Of a stretch of 64,000 nt of DNA, positions 19,575-35,487 are shown piece by piece; position 1 is the first letter of the stretch; each line of letters starts with the position of its first letter. Source of the stretch: Longimicrobiales bacterium (GTDB lineage Bacteria > Gemmatimonadota > Gemmatimonadetes > Longimicrobiales > Gaopeijiaceae); contig OX638356.1 of assembly GCA_951813395.1 (NCBI GenBank), positions 2,678,501 to 2,742,500 on the forward strand, written 5' to 3'. Both the position numbers and the translations under genes were made by a program. The notes beneath the pieces are model-generated. The model worked only from the letters and a program-made list of their open reading frames with translations. It was not told where the DNA came from and did no database searches.

Positions 19575-19712
19575 GAATGGGCTCAATCGAATGGTAACAA
19601 TAGCGCAGTTGTGGGCTTCTCGGGCTTTGAGGATGGCACCCGTTCTTACGAGCTTGCAGCAGTTGAGAGACAAACGCTCGGTTGCTCGAAACTCAAACAA
19701 ACACCCACCCCC

Positions 19713-21392
19713 ATGACCCACACCGAAATCGTCAGCTTCATCTGGGATGTCGCGAACCTGATCCGCGACAGCTTCAAGCGCGGGAAGTACCAGGACGTCA
19801 TCCTCCCCCTCACCGTGCTCCGGCGACTCGACTGCGTCCTCGCCCCCACCAAGGAGAAGGTCCTGGCACGGAACGCCGAACTCAAGGACCGCGGCCTGGA
19901 GGATCGGCGTGAGCAGCTTGAAATAGCCTCCGGCTTCGCCTTCTACAACACCTCCCACTACGACTTCGGCCGGCTCCTGGCGGACGCGCCCCAGGTGGCC
20001 GCCAACCTCCGCAACTACATCGCGGGGTTCAGCGAGAACATGCGGGAGGTGGTTGAGCGGTTCGATTTCGACAACACGATCAGCAAGCTCGACGAGGCCG
20101 GCTTGCTCTTCCAGGTGCTGGAGCGCTTCCGCAAGGTAGATCTCCACCCCAAAGAGGTGGACAACCCGACGATGGGGACGATCTTCGAGGAGCTGATCCG
20201 TCGCTTCAACGAGGCCCTCGACGAGAACCCCGGCGAACACTTCACGCCGCGGGACGTGGTCCATCTGATGGTAGACCTGATGCTCGCGGGTGACGAAGCG
20301 CGGATCTCGGGAGCCGGTGTGGTCCGCAGCGTCTACGACCCGTGCTGCGGATCGGGCGGGATGCTGATGATCGCCAAGGAGCACATTCTGCAGGGCCGCA
20401 GCGCCAACAAGACCGTGCTCCGGCCCGCCATCAATCCCCAGGCGAAGATCTATCTGTTCGGGCAGGAGGTGAATCCCGAGACGTGGGCCCTGTCGAAGTC
20501 GGACTTCTTCATGAAGGACCCGACTGGGCGCGACGCGAGAAGGGTCGCTTTCGGCAGCACACTCTCCAACGACCGCCACGCCGGCCGCCATTTCGACTAC
20601 CTGATCGCCAATCCGCCCTACGGCAAGGACTGGAAGCGCGACAAGGCCGCGGTCAAGGCGGAGCACGAACGGGGCGCGGCCGGGCGCTTCGGACCGGGGC
20701 TCCCGAGGATCAGCGACGCTCAGACCCTCTTCCTTCTCCACATGCTGGCCCGTGCGAAGGCGCCGGCGGAGGGCGGGACGCGTATCGCGATCATCATGAA
20801 CGGCTCCCCGCTCTTCACCGGCGACGCCGGGAGCGGCGAAAGCGAGATCCGCAGGCACATCCTCGAGAACGACCTGCTGGAGGCGCTGATCGCGCTCCCC
20901 GAACAGCTCTTCTACAACACCGGCATCGGCACCTACATCTGGCTGCTGACCAACCGCAAGGCACCGGAGCGGGCCGGCAAGGTCCAGCTGATCGACGCCA
21001 CCTCCTTCTGGTCGCCTCTCACGAAGAGCCTTGGGAACAAACGGCGCGACATCCCGCTCGAAAAGGCCGCGGACATCCTGGAGCTGCTTCGGGGCTTCGC
21101 CGACGGGGAGACGCGGACGGTGCGGGAAGACGGGGAGGACGAAGAGGTGATCGTGAGTCGCCTCTTTCCAACCACGCGGTTCGGATTCCGCAAGATCACC
21201 GTCGAGCGTCCCCTGCGGCTGAATTTCCGGACCAGCGAGGACAGGATCGCGAGGCTGGGTGACCGGCGGGCATTCGCGAATCTGGCCAAGTCGCGAAGGC
21301 GGGGTGAGGCGGGCGAGCGCGCCAGGGCCGAGGGCCGTGCGTTTCAGGACTCCATCAGGAACGCCCTAAGGTGTATGTGCGACACCCTCCAC
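19713..21392 (+). pseudogene. hsdM: Type I restriction-modification M subunit, 5' part (IS-disrupted)
   Basis: These are the first 560 codons of an HsdM adenine-N6 methyltransferase, interrupted by the IS3 element at 21393. The N-terminal HsdM domain (W-D-V-A-N-L-I-R, V-I-L-P-L-T-V-L-R-R-L-D) is followed by motif X-like F-T-P-R-D-V-V-H-L-M, motif I D-P-C-C-G-S-G-G-M-L and motif IV N-P-P-Y-G-K-D-W. Translation runs 33 codons into the IS before a stop at 21489-21491. Joined at the CAC duplication to 22882-23376 it gives one uninterrupted 724-aa HsdM. The C-terminal ~164 residues, needed for S-subunit contacts in this family, are cut off, so methylation and restriction are probably abolished. 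Confidence 0.88.
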
Positions 21393-21422
21393 TGGGGTGG
21401 TCCTACTTCGTTGGACAGTTCG
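21393..21422. repeat. IS3 terminal inverted repeat, left
   Basis: These 30 bp match the complement of 22849-22878 at 23 positions, with the conserved outer block GGTGGTCC and inner block TTGGACAG. It begins with TG, as IS3-family ends do. The similarity resumes further in at AAGGTGGATTCC. Confidence 0.8.
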
Positions 21423-21489
21423 AGGGCAAAGTTAAGGTGGATTCCGGCTGAGTTTGAGAGCCCTCGGGAACCTTTGCTTCGTGAATCGT

Positions 21490-21582
21490 AAGCCCCGCTC
21501 GCCGGGAGGGGAACCCGACCGGCGAGCGGGGCTTGGTAGCGGTCGGGGAGCGCGCGCCCAGCGGGCGGACTGCCCGCTGGGC
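21490..21582. terminator. Two consecutive strong hairpins in the non-coding end of the IS
   Basis: Hairpin 1 has perfect 16-bp GC-rich arms at 21490-21505 and 21519-21534. Hairpin 2 has perfect 11-bp arms GCCCAGCGGGC (21556-21566) and GCCCGCTGGGC (21572-21582). Both lie downstream of orfB on the minus strand. No U-tract follows, so intrinsic termination is not certain. They could block readthrough into or out of the element, or be an inserted palindromic repeat. Confidence 0.45.
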
Positions 21583-21687
21583 CTCCGGCCCGCGGCCTCA
21601 TGGGTGTGCGCTCCGGTGCGCGGACACATGGACGGACGGGAGCCTGCGGGCGCTCGGCACCGGCCGGCTGGACGCGACGCGGCTTGG

Positions 21688-22509
21688 TCATGCCGCCCTC
21701 GCGCTGTTGCGGTAGGTCTCGCCCGGCGTCCGCCCGCCCAGCGACGAGTGCGGGCGCACCTCGTTGTAGAAGTCGATCCACGAGCCGATGATCCGCTCGG
21801 CATCCAGCCCGTTGCGGAGTTCATGCAGGTACACCGCCTCGTACTTCAGCGACCGCCACAGCCGTTCGATGAAGATGTTGTCGAGGAACCGGCCCCGGCC
21901 GTCCATCGAGAACGCCACGCCTGCCTCCAGCACCCGGTCGGCGAAGGCCGCGCTGGTGAACTGCGCACCCTGGTCGGTATTCAGGATCTCCGGAGTCGCC
22001 CGGATGAGCGCGTCGTCCAGGGCCCCGGTGCAGAACGACGCGTCCATTGTGTTGGACAATCGCCAGGAGAGGACGTGCCGCGTCGCCCAGTCCATCACGG
22101 CCACGAGGTAGAAAAACCCTTGGCTGACAGGGATATAGGTGATGTCCGCGCACCAGACATGGTCCGACCGGGAGATCTCGAGGTCGCGCAGCAGGTAGGG
22201 GAAGATCCGGTGCTCCGAGTTCGCCACGCTCGTGCGCGGCCGCCGGTAGACCGCCTCCATCCCCATGAGCCGCATGAGCCGCCGGACCCGGTGCCGGCCG
22301 GCCGTGACACCCTCGCGGCGGAGATGCCGCATCATCTGCCGGCTCCCGTAGAACGGATAGTCCATGTGGAGCTCGTCCATCCGCTGCATCACCGCCAGGT
22401 TCTCCGCGCTCTCCCCCTTCGGCCGGTAGTAGAGCGACGATCGGCTCACACCCAGCAGCACGCTCTGCCTCGACAGGCTCAGCGGTCCGTCCGGCTCGAT
22501 CATCCCCAT
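21688..22509 (-). CDS. IS3-family transposase OrfB (DDE integrase)
   Basis: A 273-aa integrase-type transposase. The HTH_21-like region (Y-P-F-Y-G-S-R-Q-M-M, R-H-R-V-R-R-L-M-R-L-M-G) is followed by the rve/DDE catalytic core: Asp in W-C-A-D-I-T-Y-I, Asp in L-N-T-D-Q-G-A-Q-F, and Glu in F-I-E-R-L-W-R-S-L-K-Y-E. All three acidic residues are present. The C-terminal N-E-V-R-P-H-S-S-L-G-G is typical. The frame stays open upstream of the ATG at 22509 to the slippery run in orfA, so the active product is probably the OrfAB fusion made by -1 frameshifting. Confidence 0.93.
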   Translation of the reverse strand: MGMIEPDGPLSLSRQSVLLGVSRSSLYYRPKGESAENLAVMQRMDELHMDYPFYGSRQMMRHLRREGVTAGRHRVRRLMRLMGMEAVYRRPRTSVANSEHRIFPYLLRDLEISRSDHVWCADITYIPVSQGFFYLVAVMDWATRHVLSWRLSNTMDASFCTGALDDALIRATPEILNTDQGAQFTSAAFADRVLEAGVAFSMDGRGRFLDNIFIERLWRSLKYEAVYLHELRNGLDAERIIGSWIDFYNEVRPHSSLGGRTPGETYRNSARAA

Positions 22510-22523
22510 CCGCTCCGTCCGGC

Positions 22524-22811
22524 TCAGCGCTTCAACCCGCGCCGAAAAAAATCCCGCTCCACCGTCAACTCTCCGATCTTGGCGTGCAGCTCGTGGATCT
22601 TCGCCTCATGCTCCTTGGCGAGCTTCCGACTCCCGCCCTTGGCGAACACCTCCGGCACGGCATCCAGCAGCTGCCGCTTCCAGGCGCTCACCTGATTCGG
22701 ATGAAGCTCATGCCGTGCCGCGATCGCCTGTACGCTGTCGCGCTCCTGGAGCGCCTCCAACGCCACTCGGGCCTTGAACTCCGCCGTGAATCTCCGTCTC
22801 TTTCTGGCCAT
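22524..22811 (-). CDS. IS3-family transposase OrfA (helix-turn-helix)
   Basis: A 95-aa IS3/IS911-type OrfA. It has R-R-R-F-T-A-E-F-K-A-R-V-A-L-E-A-L and H-P-N-Q-V-S-A-W-K-R-Q-L, the HTH that binds IS ends, then a leucine-zipper-like C-terminus. A run of seven T on the coding strand near the end (complement of 22545-22551) is a probable -1 slippery site: shifting back one base leads into the open orfB frame. AGGAGG lies just upstream of the ATG at 22811. Confidence 0.92.
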   Translation of the reverse strand: MARKRRRFTAEFKARVALEALQERDSVQAIAARHELHPNQVSAWKRQLLDAVPEVFAKGGSRKLAKEHEAKIHELHAKIGELTVERDFFRRGLKR

Positions 22812-22848
22812 CTCGGTGCCTCCTGTTCCATAATGGAATCCACCTTAA

Positions 22849-22878
22849 CGACCTGTCCAAAAAACCGGGACCACCTCA
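22849..22878. repeat. IS3 terminal inverted repeat, right
   Basis: The counterpart of 21393-21422, ending in CA on the plus strand and followed directly by the CAC target duplication and the resumed hsdM reading frame. It lies upstream of orfA and probably overlaps the transposase promoter. Confidence 0.8.
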
Positions 22879-22881
22879 CAC

Positions 22882-23376
22882 AAGGATCGCGAGACCTTCG
22901 TCGCCGAACTCAACGCGGCAGTGAAGAGGGCGGACATCAAGCTGCGCGCACCGATCAGGAAGGCGATCCTGGCGGCGCTCTCGGAACGCGACGAAACGGC
23001 GGCCATCTGCCGTGACAAACGTGGCCTGCCCGAGCCGGACCCGGGGCTCCGGGACACCGAGCGCGTGCCCCTTCCCGACGGGGCCGACTCGGTGGACGAG
23101 GTGGGGATCCCAGCGAGCGTCCAGGAGTTCTTCGACCGAGAGGTCAAGCCCCATGCGTCCGACGCCTGGATCAACACGAGCAAGCGAGATGCTCGCGACG
23201 GTCATGTGGGACTGGTCGGCTACGAGATTAACTTCAACCGCTGCTTCTACCGCTTCAAGCCACCCCGGCCGCTTGGGGAGATCGAGGCGGACATCCGCAG
23301 GATCGAACGCGAGATGGTGGCGATGCTTCGGGAGGTGGCGGGAACATCGTACGTTTCGGAGCCGGGAGGGGCTTGA
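22882..23376 (+). pseudogene. hsdM: Type I restriction-modification M subunit, 3' part
   Basis: The separated C-terminal 164 codons of the HsdM broken by the IS3 element. The frame resumes directly after the CAC target duplication as K-D-R-E-T-F-V-A-E-L-N, in phase with codon 560 upstream. Family features include L-S-E-R-D-E-T-A-A-I-C-R-D and E-F-F-D-R-E-V-K-P-H-A, ending near E-I-E-A-D-I-R-R-I-E. An internal ATG at 22921 might give a 151-aa fragment, but there is no reason to expect function alone. Confidence 0.88.
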
Positions 23377-23448: not shown

Positions 23449-24057
23449 ATGATCGAGCAAACCAAGATTGGTGATCGCTTTGCAGAGGCGGATCTCGGCG
23501 CCTATTTCCGCCCATGCGACGCGGAAGCCGTCGGCATCAGCTACCCGCAGCTTCGTCGGCTGGAGGGGCTGGGACTGGTCGAGCGCGAGGGATGGGGCCT
23601 CTACCGAAAGACGCACGCCGACATCACGAGGCATCATACACTCGCCGCGGTGTGCGCGCGGGTTCCGCAGGCGGTCATCTGCCTGCTCACGGCGCTGGAG
23701 GTGCATGACATCGGCACTCAGAAACCGCGCCACGTCTGGATCGCGATCCCCCACAAGGCGAGGGTCCCAACCCTGGGAAGGCTGCCGGTGCGGATCACGC
23801 GATTCAGTTCGGCCGCGCTCACCTACGGGGTGGAGGACACGGACTTCGAAGGTGTCCCGGCAAGGATCACAACTCCGGCGCGCACGGTCGTGGACTGTTT
23901 CCGTTTCCGGAGCAAGATCGGGCTCGAACCCGCCCTCGAAGCGCTTCACGACGCGCTGGATGACCGAAGAGCGACTCCCGGACAGATCTGGCGGGCCGCG
24001 GAGGTCTGCGGCGCGCGGTCGCTGGTCGAGCCGGCACTGAGAATGCGGTCGTATTAA
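23449..24057 (+). CDS. AbiEi-family antitoxin/transcriptional regulator, copy 1
   Basis: A 202-aa protein of the type IV toxin-antitoxin AbiEi family. The N-terminal winged helix occupies about 14-55 (A-Y-F-R-P-C-D-A-E-A-V-G-I-S, L-V-E-R-E-G-W-G-L-Y-R). The C-terminal antitoxin domain has A-L-E-V-H-D-I-G-T-Q, R-H-V-W-I-A-I-P and I-T-T-P-A-R-T-V-V-D-C-F-R-F-R. AbiEi normally represses its own operon and counteracts the nucleotidyltransferase AbiEii. No toxin gene follows; instead a fragment of hsdM 3' sequence and a second AbiEi copy come next. It may act as a stand-alone regulator of the restriction locus. Confidence 0.87.
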   Translation: MIEQTKIGDRFAEADLGAYFRPCDAEAVGISYPQLRRLEGLGLVEREGWGLYRKTHADITRHHTLAAVCARVPQAVICLLTALEVHDIGTQKPRHVWIAIPHKARVPTLGRLPVRITRFSSAALTYGVEDTDFEGVPARITTPARTVVDCFRFRSKIGLEPALEALHDALDDRRATPGQIWRAAEVCGARSLVEPALRMRSY

Positions 24058-24145: not shown

Positions 24146-24163
24146 CAAGGACTTCATGGTCAT

Positions 24164-24203
24164 AGAAAATGTCACATCCGTTCGTGAATGTGACTATTTT
24201 TTT
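24164..24203. promoter_or_regulatory. Inverted repeat upstream of second AbiEi gene
   Basis: GTCACAT (24171-24177) and ATGTGAC (24188-24194) are a perfect 7-bp dyad with a 10-bp spacer, extended outward by AGAAAAT on the left and TATTTTTTT on the right. The right flank ends 3 bp before the ATG at 24207. The left arm matches that of the first AbiEi operator, so both paralogues may bind both sites. Confidence 0.55.
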
Positions 24204-24206
24204 GCC

Positions 24207-24824
24207 ATGAACCTGCTTACTCAGACCAACGGCGACGCACAGCGGCTCCAGAACGCCGGGCTGCCTGCATTCTTCCGCCCCCAGGACGCGGAGGCTGCCG
24301 GTATCCCCTACGATCATCTGCGGCGTATGGAGAACGCCGGACTCGTCGAGCGGGAGGGGTGGGGACTCTACCGTCGCACGGACGCCGACTTCACCGAGCG
24401 ACATGACCTGGCCGCCGTCTGCGCGCGAGTGCCGAACGCCATCGTGTCGCTCATCTCCGCCCTCAGCGTACACGAGATCGGCACGCAGATACCGTTCGGC
24501 TCCTGGATCGCAATCCCGCACGGCCACCGGACGCCGACGATGGCAGGCGTCAGGCTCAACGTGACGCGGTTCTCGGGCGCCTCCCTTCAGTACGGCGTTG
24601 TCGAGACCGAGTTCGAGGGGGTCCCTGCCCGGATCACGACACCGGCCCGCACTGTCGTGGACTGCTTCCGATTCCGAAACAAGGTGGGCCTCGATGTCGC
24701 CCTTGAAGCACTTGACGACGCCCTGATCTGGAACTCGGCCACGCCAAGCCAGATCTGGCGTGCCGCGGAGGCGTGCCGTGCCAGGTCGCTGCTCGAATCG
24801 CTCCTCTACGCGCGTTCGCGCTGA
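24207..24824 (+). CDS. AbiEi-family antitoxin/transcriptional regulator, copy 2
   Basis: A 205-aa paralogue of the gene at 23449. It shares the winged helix (F-F-R-P-Q-D-A-E-A-A-G-I-P, L-V-E-R-E-G-W-G-L-Y-R-R) and the block I-T-T-P-A-R-T-V-V-D-C-F-R-F-R. ATG 24207 is preferred over an in-frame ATG at 24156, which would place the operator dyad inside the coding region. The stop overlaps the ATG of a 41-codon stub (TGATG). The two copies have diverged clearly in the middle domain, so this is not a very recent tandem duplication. Confidence 0.86.
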   Translation: MNLLTQTNGDAQRLQNAGLPAFFRPQDAEAAGIPYDHLRRMENAGLVEREGWGLYRRTDADFTERHDLAAVCARVPNAIVSLISALSVHEIGTQIPFGSWIAIPHGHRTPTMAGVRLNVTRFSGASLQYGVVETEFEGVPARITTPARTVVDCFRFRNKVGLDVALEALDDALIWNSATPSQIWRAAEACRARSLLESLLYARSR

Positions 24825-24949
24825 TGGCCGCCGATCGAAAGCCGAGGGACATTCCCGCCTCGGTCTTTGGACGCCTCAAGAACCTCCGGCGGTGCGCCCT
24901 GGACTTCAGACCGGCGGAGGCAGTTGAGGACGACGATCGAGATGACTGA
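24824..24949 (+). pseudogene. Short AbiEii-like toxin stub between AbiEi and hsdS
   Basis: A 41-codon frame starts at the ATG overlapping the AbiEi stop and ends with a TGA that overlaps the hsdS ATG by 8 bp. The first ~23 residues (K-P-R-D-I-P-A-S-V-F-G-R-L-K-N-L-R-R) resemble the N-terminus of AbiEii-type nucleotidyltransferase toxins, which follow AbiEi in intact systems. The catalytic nucleotidyltransferase domain is absent. It may survive because it couples translation of AbiEi to hsdS. The similarity is short, so the family assignment is tentative. Confidence 0.45.
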
Positions 24950-26348
24950 GCCCTGTGGCCCCAACCGGGAAGCCGTCTTGGGATGGCCACGCTATCCGGC
25001 ATGCCGGGACTCTGGAGTCGAGTGGCTCGGGGAGCTTCCGGCGCATTGGGAGGTGAGGAGGTTGAAGGAATGCGCCAACGTCTGGCTCAGCAACGTCGAC
25101 AAGAAATCCGTGGAGGGTGAGCCCGAAGTCAGGCTATGCAACTACGTGGATGTGTACTACCACGATCGGATCCACGGCGAGATGGAGTTCATGACGGCGA
25201 CGGCCACGCCCGCTCAAGTCCGAAGATTCTCATTGCGCGAGGGTGATGTCCTCATCACCAAGGATTCCGAGACTTGGACCGACATCGCTGTCCCAGCCCT
25301 GGTGACCGAAGACCTCGCCGATGTCGTGTGTGGGTACCATCTTGCCCTGATCCGACCCAAGCGGAATTGCGTCGGAGGCTTTGTGGGTCGGGCGATCGGT
25401 GCTGTGGGTCTGCGAGAACAGTACCAGGTCGCGGCGAATGGCATTACACGGTTCGGACTCACGGCCGATGGGATAATGAACGGTGTCCTGCCGTTGCCTC
25501 CGTTGTCGGAACAGCGCTCAATCGTTCGCTTTCTCGACCGCGAGACGACCAAAGTCGACGAGCTCATCCCCAAGCAACAAGAGTTAATCAGGTTGCTGCA
25601 GGAGAAACGCACCGCGCTCATCAGCCACGCGGTCACGAAGGGCCTTGATCCCGATGCCGCCATGAAGGACTCCGGCGTCGAGTGGCTGGGGGAGATTCCG
25701 GCGCATTGGGAAGTCGCCGCCCTCCAGTATCGGTACGAACACTCGCTCGGCAAGATGCTTGACACCAAACGGATCACCGGGGACCACCTGGTTCCATACC
25801 TCCGGAACGTTGATGTTCAGTGGGACCATATCAACCTTGCAGACCTCCCGAGTATGGATATCCGCCCTCATGAACTCGAACGATTCACAGTCCGCCGGGG
25901 GGATCTGCTTGTCTGCGAGGGTGGAGAGGCGGGCCGTTGTGCGATATGGCAGGGGAAACTCGATCCGTGTGGCTACCAGAAGGCATTGCACCGCCTGCGG
26001 CCTCTTGACAGGGTTCGCGACGCACCGCGCTTCCTCTACTACACTCTATCGGCAGCGGTGGCCCGGGGCGCGTTTGCCGGCGGCCAAGGAAGCACTATTG
26101 GACACCTCACCGGGGACATGCTTCGCGTTCATCGATTCCCCTTCCCACCGACGGCCGAGCAGCAGTCAATCGCCAGCGTCCTCGACCGCGAAACGAGCAA
26201 GGTCGACGCCGCAGTCGCCAGAGCCAACGACGCCATCGCCCACCTCAACGAATACCGCACCGCCCTGATCTCCGCCGCCGTCACCGGTAAAGTCGACGTA
26301 AGACGCGCCCTCGAACCCTCCACCACCACCCCCCGCCCCGCCCCATGA
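24942..26348 (+). CDS. hsdS: Type I restriction-modification specificity subunit
   Basis: A 468-aa HsdS that determines the bipartite DNA target of the type I complex. It has two target-recognition domains, each introduced by D-S-G-V-E-W-L-G-E-L/I-P-A-H-W-E-V (residues 23 and about 243). Each ends in a conserved helical spacer with L-D-R-E-T-x-K-V-D and Y/K-R-T-A-L-I-S-x-A-V-T. ATG 24942 overlaps the preceding stub stop. Its own stop overlaps the ATG of a partial hsdR copy (ATGA), so hsdR originally followed directly. Without an intact HsdM it cannot form the usual M2S complex. Confidence 0.93.
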   Translation: MTEPCGPNREAVLGWPRYPACRDSGVEWLGELPAHWEVRRLKECANVWLSNVDKKSVEGEPEVRLCNYVDVYYHDRIHGEMEFMTATATPAQVRRFSLREGDVLITKDSETWTDIAVPALVTEDLADVVCGYHLALIRPKRNCVGGFVGRAIGAVGLREQYQVAANGITRFGLTADGIMNGVLPLPPLSEQRSIVRFLDRETTKVDELIPKQQELIRLLQEKRTALISHAVTKGLDPDAAMKDSGVEWLGEIPAHWEVAALQYRYEHSLGKMLDTKRITGDHLVPYLRNVDVQWDHINLADLPSMDIRPHELERFTVRRGDLLVCEGGEAGRCAIWQGKLDPCGYQKALHRLRPLDRVRDAPRFLYYTLSAAVARGAFAGGQGSTIGHLTGDMLRVHRFPFPPTAEQQSIASVLDRETSKVDAAVARANDAIAHLNEYRTALISAAVTGKVDVRRALEPSTTTPRPAP

Positions 26349-26456
26349 CCCCCGCCCCCACCTCCGAATGCGCCTCGACTTCCTGGTAGCCACCAGCCAC
26401 GCACCCGAAACCGCCTCAAGCAGCACCACGCCGCCGATGTCCACAAGCGCTTTCCC
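26345..26456 (+). pseudogene. Partial duplicate of the hsdR 5' end
   Basis: The first ~30 nt (M-T-P-A-P-T-S-E) are almost identical to the true hsdR start at 27748. The sequence then jumps to a segment matching 27961-28040 (F-L-V-A-T-Q-P-R-T-W-N-R-L-K-Q-H-H region), with about 190 nt missing and a shifted frame. It begins at the ATG overlapping the hsdS stop, the natural hsdR position. This is a scar left when the 26582-27728 gene pair was inserted. Confidence 0.75.
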
Positions 26457-26581
26457 GGACTACCCCGCGTCATTCCGCCGACACCACCGAGCAATTACCT
26501 TTCGAGGCGCAGCCGAAGGCGCTTCCTCGCCATCGGCAGCCGAGCAAGAGGACGAATCACACACACGGAGGAGAACACCCA

Positions 26582-26812
26582 ATGAGTGAAGCTCGTCAGC
26601 CAGACGCCCATCAGCCCGAAGTCCAGGACGGCTCGGCCGAGGGTGCGGTCATACGCCTGCTCGAAGAAGCGCTCAACCGTTACGAAGACATCATGGAACT
26701 GGCGGATCTCGAGGACGGTTTGGACGCGGACGCCCCCCATCCCGCAGATTACTCATGGGACAATCCCATTGGCCTGGTCGTCAGGGAAGGACGCCATGGC
26801 TACCTGGTCTGA
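26582..26812 (+). CDS. Small acidic hypothetical protein, partner of SDH_sah protease
   Basis: A 76-aa acidic protein with a good ribosome-binding site (GGAGGAG at 26567-26573, 8 nt before the ATG). It contains a helical A-V-I-R-L-L-E-E-A-L-N-R-Y-E-D and ends G-R-H-G-Y-L-V. No family was recognised. It overlaps the next gene by 17 bp, so the two are co-translated. Small size, acidity and coupling would fit an antitoxin, inhibitor or adaptor, but nothing in the sequence proves that. Confidence 0.6.
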   Translation: MSEARQPDAHQPEVQDGSAEGAVIRLLEEALNRYEDIMELADLEDGLDADAPHPADYSWDNPIGLVVREGRHGYLV

Positions 26813-27728
26813 ACTCTTGGACCAGTTCAATGGACGACCGCCCGAGGAACGAGGCGAATGGATTGCTGCGACGACGCGCCAAGCGGTAGCGGAGATCGCC
26901 AAGATCTCGGATCGGAATGTTGTAGCGTACACTTCCGCTTTTCTCCAGAAGCCGCAGGTGCCCGGGCTGCTGACGGCGATCAACCAAGAGGACATCAACG
27001 GATTCATGGCAGGCGTTCATGGCCTCGACCCTCAGAAGAGCCTTCTCCTGCTGTTGCACACCCCCGGCGGATTGCCGGATGCTGCACAGACGATAGTATC
27101 GTACCTGCGGAGCAAGTACACCGACATCCACGTGGTGATTCCGACCTATGCCATGTCCGCGGGCACCATGGTGGCTCTGGGATGCGATCGGATAATCATG
27201 GGTCGGCAGAGTCAGCTTGGACCCACTGATCCTCAGCTTATCGTTGGGCAGAGGCCTTACTCGGCACACTCGATAGTCTCGCAGTTTGACCAGGCCAAGA
27301 AGCAGATCCTGGAGAATCCCGTCACGGCTCATGCATGGGCGCCGGTGCTGCGCGCCTTTGGACCGGCTTTGCTGGAAGAGGCACACAAGTCGATTGAGCA
27401 CACGCAGATCCTGGTCGAGAACTGGCTGAAGCGGTACATGTTCCGAACCCGCGATGACTCGGCGATCCTTGCGAACAATGTCGCGTCTCACTTCGGTGGT
27501 CCAGGGCACAGGAGTCATGCCAGACGGATCGGCCGCGACGAGGCCCGAGGACAGCACCTGGATGTCGTGGATCTCGAAGAAAACCAGAACCTGCAGGAGG
27601 CCGTCCTCACCTTGTATCACTTGGCCACCATCGCGTTCGAGCAGGGACCGGCACTCAAGACTGTTCTAAGCAGCAATGGTCGCATGTGGGTGAAGAATAT
27701 CACCAGCGGTGGTCCCCAATCCCAATAG
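26796..27728 (+). CDS. SDH_sah-type serine protease (ClpP/crotonase fold)
   Basis: A 310-aa protein resembling the serine dehydrogenase proteinase (SDH_sah) family, soluble relatives of SppA and ClpP. The fold signature is L-L-L-H-T-P-G-G near residues 85-92, followed by I-P-T-Y-A-M-S-A-G-T-M with the likely nucleophile Ser near 125, then G-P-T-D-P-Q-L. It has no signal peptide or membrane segment, so it should be cytoplasmic. ATG 26796 lies inside the end of the small acidic gene. The pair is wedged between hsdS and hsdR and flanked by a duplicated hsdR 5' end, marking it as inserted cargo. A defence role is plausible but unproven. Confidence 0.78.
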   Translation: MATWSELLDQFNGRPPEERGEWIAATTRQAVAEIAKISDRNVVAYTSAFLQKPQVPGLLTAINQEDINGFMAGVHGLDPQKSLLLLLHTPGGLPDAAQTIVSYLRSKYTDIHVVIPTYAMSAGTMVALGCDRIIMGRQSQLGPTDPQLIVGQRPYSAHSIVSQFDQAKKQILENPVTAHAWAPVLRAFGPALLEEAHKSIEHTQILVENWLKRYMFRTRDDSAILANNVASHFGGPGHRSHARRIGRDEARGQHLDVVDLEENQNLQEAVLTLYHLATIAFEQGPALKTVLSSNGRMWVKNITSGGPQSQ

Positions 27729-27747
27729 CGCTGTAGGTAGTGGTCCC

Positions 27748-30700
27748 ATGACCCCCGCCCCCACCTCCGAACGCGCCTTCGAGGACGCCATCGAGTACGC
27801 CCTCCTCCGCTGGGGCCCCGACGCCTGCCCCGAGGACCCGGGAGTGGGCCGCGAGCCCCGGGCACCCCACTACGGCGATGGCTTCGCCCCCGGCAGCTAC
27901 CACCGCCGCACCTCCGACACCCACTACGACCGTGACCTCTGCCTCATCCCCCGCGACGTCATCGACTTCCTTGTCGCCACCCAGCCACGCACCTGGAATC
28001 GCCTCAAGCAGCACCACGGCACCGATGTCCGCAAACGCTTCCTCAGCCGCCTCGCCCGGGAACTCGACCGGCGGGGCGCCCTGGATGTCTTCCGCAAGGG
28101 CATCAAGGACTCGGGCTGCAAGTTCGACTTCGCCTACTTCCGCCCGGCGAGCGGCCTCAACGAGGAGACCCGCCGGCTCCACGCCGCGAACCTCTTCTCC
28201 GTCATCCGCCAGCTCCGCTTCAGCACGAAGACGGAACAGAGCGTCGACATGGCGCTCTTCCTCAACGGCATCCCCTTCTGCACCGCCGAACTCAAGAACC
28301 CGCTCACCGGCCAGAACGTCGAGAAGGCGATCCTGCAGTACCGCAGCGACCGCGACCCCCGCGAAACGCTCTTCGCCCACCGCCGCTGTCTCGCGCACTT
28401 CGCGGTCGACCCGAACTGGGTCTACGTCACCACGCACCTCCGAGGCCCGAAGACCCGCTTCCTGCCCTTCAACCGCGGCAAGTTCGGCGGCGCCGGCAAT
28501 CCCCCCGTCCCCCCCACCCGGCGCGGATACGCCACGGACTACCTCTGGGACGAGGTCTGGGCGCGGGACAGCGTTCTCGATCTGATCCGCCAGTTCATTC
28601 ACGAGGTGAAGGACGAGGACGACAACGGCCGGCGAACGACCCGCCTGATATTCCCGCGCTACCAGCAACTCGACGCCGTCCGGCGCATGGTCTCCCACGC
28701 CCGCCGCCACGGCGCGGGCCGGCGCTACCTGGTCCAGCACTCCGCCGGGAGCGGCAAGAGCTTCACCATCGCCTGGCTCGCGCACCAGCTGTCCACGCTA
28801 CACGACGCCCGGGACCACTCGGTCTTCGATTCCATCGTCGTCGTCACCGACCGCCGCGTCCTGGACCGCCAGCTTCAGCGCGCGATCAGCCAGTTCGAGC
28901 AGACGCTCGGCGTGGTCGAAAACATCGACCGGACCTCGCGGCAACTCCGGCAGGCGCTGGAATCCGGCAAGCGGATCATCGTGACGACGCTCCAGAAGTT
29001 CCCGGTGATCGCCGAGGAGATCGGGTCGCTGCCCGGCAAGCGCTTCGCCGTGATCGTCGACGAGGCCCACTCGTCCCAGTCCGGCGAGAGTTCGAAGAGC
29101 CTCAAGGCGGTGCTCGCGTCCGGGAGCCTCGAAGGGGCGGAAGCCGAGGAGGCCGGCGCCGCGACGCCCGAGGAGGAGGTGGAGGAGACGATCCTCGCCG
29201 AGATGGAGAAGCGCGGTCCCCTGCCCAACCTCTCCACCTTCGCGTTCACGGCCACTCCGAAGGCGAAGACCCTGGAGCTCTTCGGAGTGCAGCGCGCCGA
29301 CGGCAAGTTCGAGCCCTTCCACCTCTACAGCATGCGTCAGGCGATCGAGGAGGAGTTCATACTCGATGTCCTCGCCAACTACACGACGTATTCCGCCTAC
29401 TGGAAGCTCTTCAAGACCATCGAGGACGACCCGCGCTACGAGAAGAAGAAGGCGGCCTATCTGCTCAAGTCCTTCGTCGAACTGCACCCGCACGCGATCG
29501 GCCGCAAGGTCGAGATCATGGTCGAGCACTTCGCCGCCGAGGTGCACGACAGGATCGGTGGCAGGGCCAAGGCCATGATCGTCACCCGTTCCCGCCTGCA
29601 CGCGGTGCGCTACAAGCTCGCCGTGGACGCCTATCTCGCCGGGAAGGGGTATCCGTGGAAGTGCCTGGTCGCCTTCTCCGGCAAGGTGGACGACGGCGGG
29701 AAGGAGTACACCGAGCCCGGGATGAATTCGGCCGGCGCGGATCATATGATCGGGGAGCAGCACACGGCGGCCGAGTTCGCCAAGCCCGAGTACCGGTTCC
29801 TGGTCGTGGCGAGCAAGTTCCAGACCGGCTTTGACCAGCCCTTCCTCCACACCATGTACGTGGACAAGAAGCTGGGCGGCGTGAACGCGGTGCAGACCCT
29901 CTCGCGCCTGAACCGGACGCACCCCGGCAAGGAGGAGACTGCGGTGCTCGATTTCGCCAACGAGGCCGAGCACATCCGCGCCGCGTTCGAACCCTACTAC
30001 GACACGACGCTGCTGTCGGAGGGGACCGACCCGAACCTGCTGTACGACATCCAGAACGAGCTTCGGGACTTCGATGTCTACAGCGAAGCGGAGGTGGACG
30101 AGTTCGCCGGGGCCTACTTCGGGCGCAACGCCACCCAGGACCAGTTGTATGCGCGTCTCGGAGCCGTCGTGGATCGTTTCCGCGATCTCGACCCCGACGT
30201 CCGGTCCGACTTCCGGGGCGGCCTCCGGAAGTACAACCGCCTCTACTCGTTCCTGGCCCAGATCCTGACCTTCAAGGACGCGGACCTTGAGAAGCTCCAC
30301 GTCTTTGCTCGGTACCTCCGGCCCCTGTTGCCGGGAGACGGGACCGAGCTTCCGCGCGAAGTGCAGCAGAACATCGACATGGAGTCGTACCGGCTGCAGC
30401 GGACGGGAAGCGGCGGAATCGGAATGTCCGCGCGAGCCGGCGTACTCGATCCCCGGACGAGCGGGATTCATCAGGCTCGGGCCCAGGAAGAGGTCGAGGC
30501 CCTGTCACGGATCATCGCCGAATTGAACGACCGCTTCGGCGTCGAGTTGGGCCCGGAGCACCGGGTGACTCTGGAGCAGATGATGGACCGGCTCGAGGGG
30601 GACCGCGCCCTCGACGCAGCCGCCCGCGTGAACACCCGCGAGAACGTCCGCCTGACCTTCGACAACAAGGTGGAGGAGGTGATTCAGGAGATCGTCGACT

Positions 30701-31278
30701 CGAACTTCGACCTCTACAAGCGGATCACCGACGACGAGGCATTCGGCGAGCTGGTGAAGACGCTCATGTTCGATCAGTACCTGCGTACGCACCGGAACGC
30801 CGAGGCGCTGATCAAGCAGGGGGAGTCGAAGACGCTGGAGTTCAAGTCGACGCTGCGGTGGAATCTCAAGGAGGACCGGAAGGACAACCGGGTGACCTTC
30901 GCGGCGCTGAAGACGATCGCGGCGTTCCTGAACACCGGAGGGGGCGATCTGCTGATCGGGGTGGCGGATGATGGGTCGGTGGTCGGGATCGAGAAGGACC
31001 GGCTGGATAACGACGACAAGTTCATGCTGCATCTTGTCCAGGTCGTGCGGAATGGGCTGGGGGATCGCGCGGGGGTGTGCGTGGATCCGAAGACTCAGGA
31101 GCTGAATGGGGGGACCGTGTGCGTGGTGAGCTGCCAGCGGAGTCTGGAGCCGGTGTTTCTGCGGTGGAAGGGGATGGAAGGTGGGGAGGAGGGGGACTTC
31201 TTCGTGCGGAGTGGGCCGGCGACGGCGAAGCTAACGAGGGAGAGTGCGGAGAGGTATGTTGAGACGCGGTTTGGGTAG
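27748..31278 (+). CDS. hsdR: Type I restriction endonuclease subunit R with C-terminal AlbA_2-like domain
   Basis: A 1176-aa motor/nuclease subunit. The N-terminal PD-(D/E)xK nuclease has S-V-D-M-A-L-F-L-N-G and A-E-L-K-N-P. The SF2 translocase has Walker A S-A-G-S-G-K-S-F, motif II V-D-E-A-H-S-S-Q-S and T-A-T-P-K, with the second RecA domain near 600-760 (F-Q-T-G-F-D-Q-P). Residues from about 1021 form an extra domain resembling AlbA_2/Schlafen-type modules (K-T-L-E-F-K-S-T-L-R-W and F-L-N-T-G-G-G-D-L-L-I-G-V-A-D-D-G). ATG 27748 is preferred because the duplicated copy at 26345 begins identically. It cleaves unmodified DNA only in complex with HsdM and HsdS, and HsdM is broken here. Confidence 0.92.
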   Translation: MTPAPTSERAFEDAIEYALLRWGPDACPEDPGVGREPRAPHYGDGFAPGSYHRRTSDTHYDRDLCLIPRDVIDFLVATQPRTWNRLKQHHGTDVRKRFLSRLARELDRRGALDVFRKGIKDSGCKFDFAYFRPASGLNEETRRLHAANLFSVIRQLRFSTKTEQSVDMALFLNGIPFCTAELKNPLTGQNVEKAILQYRSDRDPRETLFAHRRCLAHFAVDPNWVYVTTHLRGPKTRFLPFNRGKFGGAGNPPVPPTRRGYATDYLWDEVWARDSVLDLIRQFIHEVKDEDDNGRRTTRLIFPRYQQLDAVRRMVSHARRHGAGRRYLVQHSAGSGKSFTIAWLAHQLSTLHDARDHSVFDSIVVVTDRRVLDRQLQRAISQFEQTLGVVENIDRTSRQLRQALESGKRIIVTTLQKFPVIAEEIGSLPGKRFAVIVDEAHSSQSGESSKSLKAVLASGSLEGAEAEEAGAATPEEEVEETILAEMEKRGPLPNLSTFAFTATPKAKTLELFGVQRADGKFEPFHLYSMRQAIEEEFILDVLANYTTYSAYWKLFKTIEDDPRYEKKKAAYLLKSFVELHPHAIGRKVEIMVEHFAAEVHDRIGGRAKAMIVTRSRLHAVRYKLAVDAYLAGKGYPWKCLVAFSGKVDDGGKEYTEPGMNSAGADHMIGEQHTAAEFAKPEYRFLVVASKFQTGFDQPFLHTMYVDKKLGGVNAVQTLSRLNRTHPGKEETAVLDFANEAEHIRAAFEPYYDTTLLSEGTDPNLLYDIQNELRDFDVYSEAEVDEFAGAYFGRNATQDQLYARLGAVVDRFRDLDPDVRSDFRGGLRKYNRLYSFLAQILTFKDADLEKLHVFARYLRPLLPGDGTELPREVQQNIDMESYRLQRTGSGGIGMSARAGVLDPRTSGIHQARAQEEVEALSRIIAELNDRFGVELGPEHRVTLEQMMDRLEGDRALDAAARVNTRENVRLTFDNKVEEVIQEIVDSNFDLYKRITDDEAFGELVKTLMFDQYLRTHRNAEALIKQGESKTLEFKSTLRWNLKEDRKDNRVTFAALKTIAAFLNTGGGDLLIGVADDGSVVGIEKDRLDNDDKFMLHLVQVVRNGLGDRAGVCVDPKTQELNGGTVCVVSCQRSLEPVFLRWKGMEGGEEGDFFVRSGPATAKLTRESAERYVETRFG

Positions 31279-31281
31279 GCT

Positions 31282-32040
31282 TCAATTCACAAACAGGTCA
31301 TCCGGTGGTTTCGCGGCTTTGAGGTTCATCCAAGGGGACGACTCGCCCGCATTCAGAGCGTGTTCCTGCCATCGCAACAGTCTGCACCAACGATTGCGCT
31401 GAATCGCTCGCCAACGGCTTTGGTGGTGTTGGGCTTCGCTTGCCTTACGCGGCCACTCATCCTGGAACAGTTCTCCAAGTACGAACTCTACCGCTGCCAT
31501 CGGAGTGACGAAGGGACTTGGTAGTCTGGGAATCGGGATATGCTTCGGAAACGGCGGGTGGCTGCAGTCACCAAGGACCTGGAAATGGAAGTAGCAGCCA
31601 GGCGAGTCGTGGGCACCGAGCTCGATTCGCCACTTCGCTAGACGGCTCGCGCCATTGAGCTGCTCGCACGACTGGCACTCGGCAGGCCACAATTCAATGA
31701 CGGCGGAGGCTTTTCCGGTGAACGCTATCTCGCACTTAGGGCCAACCCTTCCGACGGACCGCACTTCCCAAATCCCTGTCGCGCGGGCGTATATCTCCGA
31801 GCCTCCAGACCTTGATCCGGGCTCGTAGCCAAGAGTTGGCCTAGTACAAAGCGGGCGCAGCGCAATCTCGATAGGATGCTGGGTCGCCCTTTCGCAGGCG
31901 CGGTCCAATTGACCCCTCAGGTCAGCAAGCACTCCGTCTCCATCTGGAGCAAGCAGACCTGCAGCTATGTCCCTAAGCGCTTCCGTCTCTTCAACCAACT
32001 CCTTGCACCGGAACTGAAGCCCCGTGACCCCACTACTCAT
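31282..32040 (-). CDS. Unrecognised last protein of the phosphorelay R-M cassette
   Basis: A 252-aa protein with no recognised family. ATG 32040 is chosen because it overlaps the upstream stop by 8 bp, matching the overlap style of the whole cassette. It has an early helical section (E-E-T-E-A-L-R-D-I-A-A-G), a cysteine pair C-Q-S-C near 120, several Trp-rich segments (I-E-L-W-P-A-E-C, W-R-I-E-L-G) and a C-terminal basic W-R-A-I-Q-R-N-R-W. It has no signal peptide. Position as the final gene suggests it acts with the receiver-domain protein, possibly as an output or effector factor. It converges on hsdR with a 3-bp gap. Confidence 0.7.
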   Translation of the reverse strand: MSSGVTGLQFRCKELVEETEALRDIAAGLLAPDGDGVLADLRGQLDRACERATQHPIEIALRPLCTRPTLGYEPGSRSGGSEIYARATGIWEVRSVGRVGPKCEIAFTGKASAVIELWPAECQSCEQLNGASRLAKWRIELGAHDSPGCYFHFQVLGDCSHPPFPKHIPIPRLPSPFVTPMAAVEFVLGELFQDEWPRKASEAQHHQSRWRAIQRNRWCRLLRWQEHALNAGESSPWMNLKAAKPPDDLFVN

Positions 32041-33166
32041 CGGGCTCGACCCGGTATTGGTCGAGGGGGACGACCATGGCCCTGAGTTCCGGGTCATCCC
32101 TTACCACGTCGATGGTCATCCACGCCGGATCCGCGAACGGAGGCCAGTAGTCAGGACGTACCCTCACTGCGTGCTGAGGAGACGCAACCCCATGTGGCTG
32201 GAGCTCCGAATTCAAGCAAACCACCGGATCACTTGGCCGCACCAGGGCAAGATCCTCCCCAGCTTTCTCACGGATCCGCTCTTCGAACTCGTCCGGCCCG
32301 CCTGAAGACCCGCCCCCCAGCGCCCACGCATAGTCCTCCATGGCGGTTCGCCACCAGCGGTCACCCAGGAACCCAGCCAGAAGGCCATTGTATTTCAAGC
32401 GTTCCATATCCCGCGCCAAGTCACAGCTGGAATCCATAAGGCGCTCAAGATCGTTCACCCGGAGGCGGAGACGAGCGGCCGCCCAGTTCGCATCCCATAG
32501 GAAGCACGGGTAAGGAAGGATCTGGTGGAGCAACCAACGCAGAAACAATACCCCGTGGTGACCACCGCCGAGTTCGTAGACGGGTGGCTGGCACGCACGC
32601 ACTTGCTGCCAAGCCCGTTCAGCCCATTCGTTCTCGTCATCGAGCTTGAGCAACTCTCGCACACGGGCTTCGGACGCCGAAGGATCTGCCGGCCAATCAA
32701 GTTGAAGGCGCTGCGCGCCACGAGCTATTTGCACCACACCCCGGAAACGGTCTGGATCGCGCTTCTCGAATACCCATTCAAGATTGTTTAGACGCGCCAC
32801 AACGTGTCTGGAATAGGGTGGCGGAATCCTGCCGCTGGCATCGCGCAGGTGTCCGGTGTGGAGCGCTATGGCGGTCAGGTGGCCATTCGCCCTTTCGTCC
32901 ACGGCCTCCCTCAGGACGGTGGCAAGAGCCAGACCGGTCCGGATGTTGGCAGCTGCAGGCTGAGCCTCGCGTTCCGGCCAGTCTTCGAGTCGATAGTCCA
33001 TGAGAACCAAATGTGCCCTGCCAAGATCTTCAGGTTCGACACACTGGGGATGCCGCACCGTCAGTGCCGCTTCGTCGCTGAGCGCGAGTTTCAGGCCACG
33101 TCGCAGTTGGTCTGCCTCGTCGTCGACCACGAGGATGACCGGTCTATCGGTACCATCAGCGTTCAT
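32033..33166 (-). CDS. Receiver-domain (response-regulator-like) protein with unassigned output region
   Basis: A 377-aa protein beginning with a CheY-like receiver. The acidic pair is Asp15-Asp16 in V-V-D-D-E. The phospho-acceptor is Asp57 in L-V-L-M-D-Y-R-L. The Thr/Ser switch position is likely Thr104 in A-L-H-T-G. A canonical Lys-Pro loop is not obvious. Residues from about 125 to the end are a long region with no DNA-binding HTH, containing W-A-E-R-A-W-Q-Q-V and a conserved-looking W-W-R-T-A-M-E-D-Y-A-W. Its start overlaps the dual-GHKL stop (ATGA), so it is the probable phosphotransfer partner. It is likely a direct effector switch rather than a transcription factor. Confidence 0.78.
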   Translation of the reverse strand: MNADGTDRPVILVVDDEADQLRRGLKLALSDEAALTVRHPQCVEPEDLGRAHLVLMDYRLEDWPEREAQPAAANIRTGLALATVLREAVDERANGHLTAIALHTGHLRDASGRIPPPYSRHVVARLNNLEWVFEKRDPDRFRGVVQIARGAQRLQLDWPADPSASEARVRELLKLDDENEWAERAWQQVRACQPPVYELGGGHHGVLFLRWLLHQILPYPCFLWDANWAAARLRLRVNDLERLMDSSCDLARDMERLKYNGLLAGFLGDRWWRTAMEDYAWALGGGSSGGPDEFEERIREKAGEDLALVRPSDPVVCLNSELQPHGVASPQHAVRVRPDYWPPFADPAWMTIDVVRDDPELRAMVVPLDQYRVEPDE

Positions 33167-35487
33167 TTCGGAAAGATCATTTCAATAGCGGTGGCATACG
33201 GCGAGTCGGGTTCGACGAACGCGATCTCGATCCCGTAGTAGTCGAGCACCCTTCTCGTGATCGTGAGGCCGAGACCCATCCCCTGCCCAAGTACGGGATT
33301 CACCTGTTCGGTCGTGGATTCGAAGGGCTCGAACCACCGCTCCGCCTCGCCGAGGTCGACGGCTGCACCCGTGTTCTGGACGCGCACCCGCATCACACTG
33401 TCGTCGTCGACCGAGGCGTCAATCCGTCCGCCCTCGCCGGCACCCTTTACGGCGTTCGTAAGCAAATTGGCGAAGACGGTGGTCAGTTCCGCCGGGAACA
33501 TCGGGATCGTCCTGAGTCCCGCCGGAATCCGGTTCTCGATCTGGATCTTCCGCCGCTCGGCGGAGTGCCTGACGAGACGGACGGCCGCGTCGAAGCGGTC
33601 GGCAACCGACTGGCGTGAACGACGACGGCGGGCGTCCGGCGTGACCACGTCCACAAGGTAGGAGGCGTGGCGCTCGATCCACTGGGCAAGGTCGGTTGCC
33701 GCGGCCCACGCGAGCTTCACCCGCCGGCGCTGAGATGGCGAGAGTGACCTGTCACGGAGAATCGCCCTGAGACCCTCGCGCAAGGTCTGTGCAGCTCCTA
33801 GCAACGCGTTCATCTCGTGTGCGAAGGCGGCCATTTGTGTGCCGACGGAGGCCAGTACGCGGAAGAGGGCCCCTTCGGAAATCACGTCGTCGGCCCGCTC
33901 TCTTGCCTCCTCCATCGCTCGCACAGCGTCCCGCATCTTCGGTTGGGCCGCATCCGCGTCGCCCTGGCTCACGAGCAGTCGGGCTTCGCTGATCGACGCG
34001 CCTGCCGTAGCGATGAGGTCCGGCAGGGAGCTGTGGTCGTTCTCCTTCGAACCGGCAGAAGACCGCAGGTCATCTCCTTCAAGGGAGGACTCCGCTTCTC
34101 GAGCCTTCCGCCGCTCCTCCCGCCGGCGCAAGCGCTCCTTCAGGTTACTCGCCGCCCGTACTCGGGTGCACAGATCCACGCCCGTGCGAACCAAGCGTAC
34201 GAGCGTGTCGAAAGCAGCCTCGGGCACGAAGCCTTCGCGGTTGACCAGCACCCGGAGGGTTGGCGCTCGTTCCTGGGTGAGGAACACACCGCCGAAATAG
34301 TTGATGTGGGGGAGGCGAGTCAGCCCTTCGTCTGGATCCGCATCTTCCAGCTCGGCTGCGAGAGGCCAATCCTTCAGCATCTCGAGCTGGCGGGCACGTC
34401 CGGTGTAGTCTGCATCGATAGACAGCCAATCGTCGTCGCCATAGGGCAGCACGCGGAACCCCTCGAGGTAGACGCGGATTCCGCTCGCCTTGGCGGCCCA
34501 TGTCCGCCGGTGCCGAGCCCCCTTCCCCTTAGTGCGCCCCTCCCGCACGAGGATGCGAGCGTCGAACGACGGCCCGCGTTCGGGGTCGGGGTGCTGAATG
34601 GTTGTCGCGTAGTCTCGCGCGTCGGGATTATCGGCCTGAGTGCGACATGTCGGCGAGATCGCGAAGTAGACTCGTCCCATCTCTGCTTCAGCGCGAATCT
34701 CGATGACCCACGCGGCCATCTGCGCAATCACATCCCAGTACTCGTCGCCGGACTCGAACTCGCCCTCCAGAAGCACTTCAAAGCCACCATCCGGTCGCGT
34801 CCTTTTGCCGCCAATGTCTCGGAGGACTGGACGCTCGAACAACACGGGCTCGGATATCACCGTGTCCGGCAGCGGGCGATGGACGAAGTCCGGCGTCTGA
34901 AACGCCTGCACCTCGGCGAAGAATCGGCCTCGCTCCGCCGGAGTCCACGGTCGTCTGAGATTCGACAGAGTCAGGGCGGTACCCGTCCTGACACTCTTCT
35001 CAACTTCATTCTCAATCAACGACACCATATCGTCAGGCATTTCGTCCAGCGTCTCGTACGCCTCTATTGCATCCCAATCGAGAACGGCGACGAGTTCCTC
35101 ACCCACGTCTTCGTCTGGTTTTTCGCGGTGCACGCTGGAGACCTCCAGCCGGCGCGCTAGCTTGTGCGCGGCCAGCCTCCCGATCCCCTTCACGCCTGTG
35201 TACCGGCGGCCGAACACCGTGGAGCGCCTGGTCCCCTGGTCCTTCAGGCGTGAGGCAATGCGCAGGAAGCCCGACACGAAGCGTGCCCGCGTCATGCCGG
35301 TTCCGTTGTCCAGGATCACAATGCGCCCCCGCTGCTGATCGTCGAGGTTCTCGCCGTGGACGATCACTTCGGTGGCATCGGCGTCGTACGAGTTCTTGAT
35401 CAGCTCGATCAGCGCCGTGGAATCACGGCCCACCAGGAGCTCTCCAAGCTCCCGAAACAGATGGGTGTCGATGGTAAACTTAGCCAT
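33163..35487 (-). CDS. Dual-GHKL protein: MORC/Hsp90-like ATPase plus histidine-kinase domain
   Basis: A 774-aa protein with two GHKL ATPase modules. The N-terminal one is Hsp90/MutL/MORC-like: E28-L-I-K-N-S-Y-D-A-D-A-T, then D60-N-G-T-G-M, then G-V-K-G-I-G-R (98-104). A middle beta-rich region (200-430) may be the S5-like transducer. A charged coiled coil lies at about 448-475. The C-terminal module is a histidine kinase: H557 in A-F-A-H-E-M-N, N-box F-A-N-L-L-T-N-A-V (672-680), Q-N-T-G (704-707), F-E-P-F (719-722), G-Q-G-M-G-L-G-L (734-741). No membrane segments. ATG 35487 overlaps the methyltransferase stop by 8 bp; an in-frame ATG at 35499 is possible. It probably senses DNA state and phosphorylates the receiver protein. 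Confidence 0.85.
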   Translation of the reverse strand: MAKFTIDTHLFRELGELLVGRDSTALIELIKNSYDADATEVIVHGENLDDQQRGRIVILDNGTGMTRARFVSGFLRIASRLKDQGTRRSTVFGRRYTGVKGIGRLAAHKLARRLEVSSVHREKPDEDVGEELVAVLDWDAIEAYETLDEMPDDMVSLIENEVEKSVRTGTALTLSNLRRPWTPAERGRFFAEVQAFQTPDFVHRPLPDTVISEPVLFERPVLRDIGGKRTRPDGGFEVLLEGEFESGDEYWDVIAQMAAWVIEIRAEAEMGRVYFAISPTCRTQADNPDARDYATTIQHPDPERGPSFDARILVREGRTKGKGARHRRTWAAKASGIRVYLEGFRVLPYGDDDWLSIDADYTGRARQLEMLKDWPLAAELEDADPDEGLTRLPHINYFGGVFLTQERAPTLRVLVNREGFVPEAAFDTLVRLVRTGVDLCTRVRAASNLKERLRRREERRKAREAESSLEGDDLRSSAGSKENDHSSLPDLIATAGASISEARLLVSQGDADAAQPKMRDAVRAMEEARERADDVISEGALFRVLASVGTQMAAFAHEMNALLGAAQTLREGLRAILRDRSLSPSQRRRVKLAWAAATDLAQWIERHASYLVDVVTPDARRRRSRQSVADRFDAAVRLVRHSAERRKIQIENRIPAGLRTIPMFPAELTTVFANLLTNAVKGAGEGGRIDASVDDDSVMRVRVQNTGAAVDLGEAERWFEPFESTTEQVNPVLGQGMGLGLTITRRVLDYYGIEIAFVEPDSPYATAIEMIFPK

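Follow-up and report, generated by a model that had tools for sequence, protein, structure and literature searches.

A small gene and a predicted ClpP-fold protease gene between hsdS and hsdR, probably a mobile phage-defence or toxin-antitoxin-like unit

In the genome of a Longimicrobiales bacterium (phylum Gemmatimonadota; 4.09 Mb on one contig, OX638356.1 of assembly GCA_951813395.1), we analysed a stretch of 64,000 nucleotides, positions 2,678,501 to 2,742,500, hereafter called the window. Within it, a type I restriction-modification (R-M) operon carries two additional genes between hsdS and hsdR, a small gene followed by the gene of an SDH-type serine protease (Table 1). We found that these two genes form a real, widespread module. 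Judged from its sequence and genomic context, it is probably a mobile phage-defence or toxin-antitoxin-like unit.

Table 1. Features of the R-M operon and its surroundings (window coordinates; ORF, open reading frame).
Feature	Coordinates	Strand	Basis
hsdM of this operon, interrupted by the IS3-type element	19611-21491	+	profile matches, comparison with G014
IS3-type element	21361-22878		comparison with G014
rve transposase ORF of the element	21688-22509	-	
second transposase ORF of the element	22524-22811	-	
HsdM C-terminal part, separate ORF	22921-23376		
AbiEi-type antitoxin gene, first of tandem	23449-24057		
AbiEi-type antitoxin gene, second of tandem	24156-24824		
hsdS, type I specificity subunit, upstream flank	24867-26348	+	PADLOC Specificity_I (E=1.2e-117), Methylase_S, sequence
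relic of a second hsdR 5' end	26345-26452	+	repeat search, sequence, blastn
small gene, 76 amino acids, type T0; proposed cognate regulator/inhibitor	26582-26812	+	sequence, model, orphan copy in G014
SDH-type serine protease, predicted ClpP fold, 310 amino acids	26796-27728	+	Pfam, AlphaFold2 model, alignment
hsdR, intact, downstream flank, with C-terminal SLFN_AlbA_2 domain	27748-31278	+	profile matches (PADLOC among them), HsdR search
three-gene cluster	31282-35499	-	

The hsdS/hsdR junction

A preliminary description of the window had reported a two-gene insert ahead of the intact hsdR, and an hsdS stop codon overlapping the start of a near-identical but internally deleted copy of the hsdR start. 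Both observations held. The TGA of hsdS (26346-26348) overlaps an ATG (26345-26347) that opens a relic in which hsdR codons 1-10 are fused to about codons 73-98. In a repeat search, 26342-26375 matched the start of hsdR (27745-27778) with 97% identity, while 26376-26452 resembled 27963-28040, with 60 nucleotides of this stretch (26393-26452 versus 27981-28040) at 88%; about 184 nucleotides of hsdR are absent from the copy. Since its reading frame closes after 14 codons (TAG, 26387-26389), we regard the copy as dead. By blastn, it is 91% identical to hsdR of another genome of the genus (G014). With the hsdR start codon at its tabulated position, the right end first assigned to the insert (27760) lies just inside hsdR.

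The preliminary description had also proposed comparing type I loci with and without the insert. Using HsdR as query against 59 relatives, we obtained two informative loci. In G009 (HsdR 85% identical), the conserved hsdS end is directly followed by hsdR and the insert is absent. In G014 (HsdR 92% identical), a 74-amino-acid ORF lies between hsdS and hsdR, its stop overlapping the ATG of hsdR, and the protease gene is absent. This ORF is homologous to the small gene of the window, the two sharing RYEDI..LADLED...WDNPIGLV. Thus, the hsdS/hsdR junction is found without an insert, with only the small gene and with the full pair. Comparison of the orphan small gene with that of the window gave a ratio of nonsynonymous to synonymous change of about 0.42 (estimated roughly by the Nei-Gojobori method, the gene being short), indicating mild constraint, which fits a harmless, antitoxin-like partner. 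With all three states in one genus, the antitoxin question is directly testable.

The simplest route of insertion is probably recombination: an hsdR allele that already had the module in front would have entered the operon, and the relic would be what is left of the earlier hsdR start. A target-site duplication made by a transposon was rejected because the copies of the hsdR start diverge by 3-12% and one of them has the 184-nucleotide deletion. Neither a transposase nor long inverted repeats were found bounding the insert at its edges in the window.

The protease and its small partner

The preliminary description had called the protease ClpP/SppA-like. It matches Pfam SDH_protease (PF01972) with 68.5 bits against a cut-off of 31.3, over profile positions 91-175 of 286 only, and stays far below the equivalog cut-off of NCBIfam Clp_like_SDH (NF047768; 86.7 versus 250 bits). 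The AlphaFold2 model (predicted local distance difference test score 96) aligned best with ClpP chains in VIA-align (Z 14.1, root mean square deviation 3.8, 179 residues), and Foldseek returned ClpP and PH1510 (E about 3e-4). That is, the protein is predicted to have a ClpP fold. Seven positions or pairs (S121, G91-G92, D145, H241, E261, Q267 and H275) are invariant in 116/116 aligned relatives. The S121 segment aligns with the serine motif of ClpP and PH1510. We take S121 as the putative nucleophile and G91-G92 as the putative oxyanion Gly-Gly.

The best PHROG of the window protease is 11747 ('unknown function', E=3.2e-65), which all 116 relatives match as well. We rejected a phage head maturation protease, as head-protease PHROGs reached only E about 1e-5 and the window copy lies in an R-M operon, not in a head or packaging block. 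Copies in Klebsiella, Pseudomonas, Enterobacter, Gordonia and Shewanella are not beside portal or capsid genes; a Porphyromonas copy does lie between adaptor and neck genes, yet it is beside HicAB. Another SDH subfamily occurs in a ubiquitin-like operon of G020 (L010, 81-2220), where genes for ThiF (E1-like), DUF6527 and a divergent SDH-type protease are consecutive.

Scans of genome and viral collections with the single sequence found no relatives. Alignment-based scans reached hundreds in bacteria, archaea and phages (at least 446 confirmed in genome contigs and 158 in viral contigs), of which 80 genomic and 80 viral relatives were retained for analysis. We then counted upstream small ORFs, defined as encoding 45-120 amino acids on the same strand with a stop between 35 nucleotides inside and 40 nucleotides before the protease start. 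Such an ORF was present at 122 of 146 non-redundant protease loci, compared to 192 of the 868 remaining genes at these loci (22%, an approximate control rate built on longest-ORF starts; p about 1e-46). It preceded the protease at 74/80 genomic and 43/60 viral or prophage loci. In the window the protease start overlaps the end of the small gene by 17 nucleotides; 30 of the 85 typed pairs overlap and nearly all others lie within 40 nucleotides. The two genes are probably translationally coupled, and their regulator-first order with overlap or short gap is that of type II toxin-antitoxin modules.

Rather than forming a single family, the small proteins split by sequence into ten or more types of at least three members each; these hold 88 of the 129 sequences, near-copies included, and the remainder are singletons or pairs. 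Mapping the ten types onto the protease tree took 9 changes, the theoretical minimum (mean with shuffled labels, 48.7), which indicates that the partners are inherited together and are not exchanged. Such cognate pairing, too, is characteristic of type II toxin-antitoxin modules. The preliminary description would have been contradicted by a small gene not conserved with the protease, which is the opposite of what we found. Its 'small acidic protein' applies to type T0, that of the window (isoelectric point 4.2), and does not extend to the whole family, whose type medians range from 4.4 to 9.3.

The window small protein consists of a conserved helix (residues 19-47), the only part modelled with confidence, and flexible ends, with the tail YSWDNPIGLVV. 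Several types have flexible Ser/Thr-rich tails, as might be expected if the small protein were a substrate or pro-effector activated by protease cleavage. We consider this highly improbable: no hydrophobic segment was found in any small-protein type, and the lone small gene in G014 fits a passive partner better. The same lack of hydrophobic stretches leaves a membrane-acting small toxin unsupported.

Neighbourhood, spread and proposed function

From carriage inside an R-M operon, the preliminary description had suggested an accessory anti-phage or toxin-like function, and it had recommended searching other defence islands for the pair. At the genomic loci, 15 of the 361 genes lying up to 3 kb from the module were of R-M type, against 2 of the 329 beyond 5 kb (p=0.002), a contrast somewhat favoured by drawing the R-M seeds partly from near genes of the same set. 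Their share fell with distance from 4.9% (within 1.5 kb) through 2.9%, 2.4% and 1.1% to 0% (7.5-10 kb). Counted as models, not genes, 189 PADLOC models were matched by the 112 nearest genes and 26 by 112 distant genes of the same loci. Among members of the window's clade, we observed a type IIG enzyme upstream (L050), hsdM downstream with hsdR further along (L053), a C5 methylase before the module (L054), hsdR and hsdM after it (L064), a Mod-like DNA methylase before it (L065) and an SNF2/NO VEIN helicase after it (L061). The divergent copy in G003, 36% identical to the window protease, is followed by a methylase-ResIII pair of the type III mod-res kind. The module is associated with R-M genes. 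It is not specific to R-M loci, and many copies reside in prophages and plasmids.

One explanation of this association is proteostasis of the R-M system itself. The small protein would be an adaptor that delivers targets, and the pair would turn over HsdR or other R-M subunits, a ClpX-independent restriction alleviation that protects the host chromosome. ClpXP does degrade HsdR in restriction alleviation (PMC4231737, PMC3874165), the pair adjoins several R-M types and the protease has a predicted ClpP fold. However, most copies, prophage ones included, are away from R-M genes, no unfoldase is encoded with the pair, and in the window the pair persists beside a broken hsdM. We therefore regard this explanation as quite unlikely.

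A housekeeping role, which would have spoken against the preliminary description, was rejected: of 298 genomes from the phylum, 6 have the subfamily, and within the genus as sampled it was confined to G000, G003 and G008, the last with a decayed pair at another site and an internally deleted protease. Relatives with a type T0 partner show 64-67% identity in Acidobacteriota and Gammaproteobacteria, pointing to transfer between phyla, and the GC content of the protease gene (58-60%, versus 66-72% in hsdR) together with these close copies in distant phyla argues for horizontal transfer. None of the E. coli genomes carried the Klebsiella version, the sole match being to a neighbouring gene, and a plasmid DNA search with the insert gave no match.

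A Pseudomonas prophage copy adjoins the integrase, an Enterobacter copy lies between antitermination and holin genes, Porphyromonas phage copies are beside HicAB and a plasmid copy is beside a RES/Xre pair; in two of these cases the neighbours are toxin-antitoxin genes. Such positions, the 158 viral-contig relatives and the coverage of all 116 members by PHROG 11747 would suit a prophage fitness gene, that is, a protease for lysogenic conversion, superinfection exclusion or counter-defence, directed against competing phages or host defences and later domesticated. This is in our view unlikely, as it leaves the R-M adjacency of chromosomal copies unexplained and the chromosomal neighbourhoods that we read hold mostly ordinary or R-M genes. 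A plain toxin-antitoxin addiction module that stabilizes its carrier and has no phage role would likewise account for the antitoxin-first order with overlap, the plasmid copy beside RES/Xre and the orphan small gene. But addiction alone does not predict enrichment near R-M genes, and we hold it to be distinctly improbable, while noting that addiction and defence are overlapping readings, which sequence hardly tells apart.

The reading that we prefer, tentatively and with slightly less than even confidence, is a protease effector held by its cognate small protein in an abortive second-line defence like that of PrrC in EcoprrI. An effector under restraint is suggested by the regulator-first order, the overlap, the strict pairing, the fast divergence of the small proteins and the orphan small gene. 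In healthy cells, the small protein would keep the protease inactive, perhaps with its helix and C-terminal segment bound in or close to the active site. Infection would free the protease, which might then cleave host or phage proteins and abort the infection. Placed in the hsdS/hsdR junction, the module may act as a second line once restriction fails. In this scheme we infer protease activity, inhibition, trigger, targets, toxicity and anti-phage outcome alike. A more ambitious form is rather unlikely: a pan-prokaryotic immune module exchanged by phages, in which the ClpP-fold protease would be the effector and the hypervariable cognate small protein both inhibitor and infection sensor, and which, having repeatedly entered R-M operons, would be a guard that fires when restriction is neutralized.

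Several points weigh against the effector reading. The hsdM of the window is interrupted, so that a guard of its own R-M system may be defunct. Most loci have no R-M neighbour, such genes being rare even in the nearest interval given above. For the catalytic partner of S121, the invariant residues D145, H241, E261 and H275 are at most candidates. Finally, the role of adaptor or activator would suit the small protein just as well.

The operon carries further cargo. The IS3-type element interrupts hsdM relative to G014 (L230, 780-2923), where the two HsdM parts are likewise in different frames. No AbiEii toxin was recognized next to the tandem AbiEi-type genes between hsdM and hsdS. The G014 operon (L230, 2987-8785) holds different cargo at this place: a PIN-domain gene preceded by a small partner gene, a pair encoding an AAA ATPase and a subtilisin-like protease, and an AbiEi-like gene. 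The hsd operon thus looks like a repeated insertion site for defence or toxin-antitoxin cargo. The SLFN_AlbA_2 domain of HsdR (residues 1026-1161) is an uncommon addition to this subunit. Beyond hsdR, the minus-strand cluster encodes proteins of 778, 377 and 271 amino acids. The first has two HATPase domains and an N-terminal part like BbrUII/HgiDII enzymes, the other two gave no family matches, and the cluster is possibly a further defence system.

Comparison with known systems

PADLOC-DB 2.0.0 gave no match for the small protein or the protease and one weak match (E=5e-4) among the 116 relatives. The pair is absent from this catalogue and undescribed in the journal literature searched, preprints lying outside that search. 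Its kinds are already known, namely two-gene effector modules with a small partner and effectors embedded in R-M loci. If our preferred reading is true, the prokaryotic immune effectors gain a protease of ClpP type that has a small regulator of its own; a ClpP-fold protease acting as immune effector under a sensing small protein would, if proven, be a categorical novelty.

The protease shares the superfamily core of SDH_protease (PF01972) and Clp_like_SDH and is above the Pfam cut-off, but differs by its partial profile match, by falling far below the equivalog cut-off and by the small partner gene at most loci. It belongs to the same protein family as PHROG 11747, outside of which the small partner gene lies. 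With ClpP it has in common the predicted fold (Z about 14), the oxyanion GG and the serine motif; in contrast to ClpP, it has no linked unfoldase and a longer helical C-terminal half, and only the Ser and GG of the site are assigned.

Sofic-AS1 is the 47-amino-acid antitoxin of an anti-phage FIC toxin (PMC12249575). Here, too, a tiny gene neighbours a candidate anti-phage effector, with restraint, which AS1 exerts on FIC, proposed for our pair. However, the enzyme class is another one, and AS1 is encoded downstream of its effector whereas the small gene lies upstream.

R-M-linked effectors have precedent in PrrC and RloC. PrrC is an anticodon nuclease encoded inside the EcoprrI operon; it is latent until its release on infection by phage T4 (PMC3874165). 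RloC occurs beside an hsdR relic (PMC2610378). As with PrrC, whose operon is of type IC, an additional candidate effector is embedded in a type I R-M operon, here in the order hsdS, pair, hsdR, and a second-line logic is proposed. Instead of the ABC ATPase-anticodon nuclease of PrrC and RloC, the effector would be a predicted ClpP-fold protease with its own cognate small protein. The pair is also not confined to type I R-M systems, and its regulation by R-M is at present a proposal. Should our preferred reading hold, the guard idea known from PrrC would have its counterpart in a protease.

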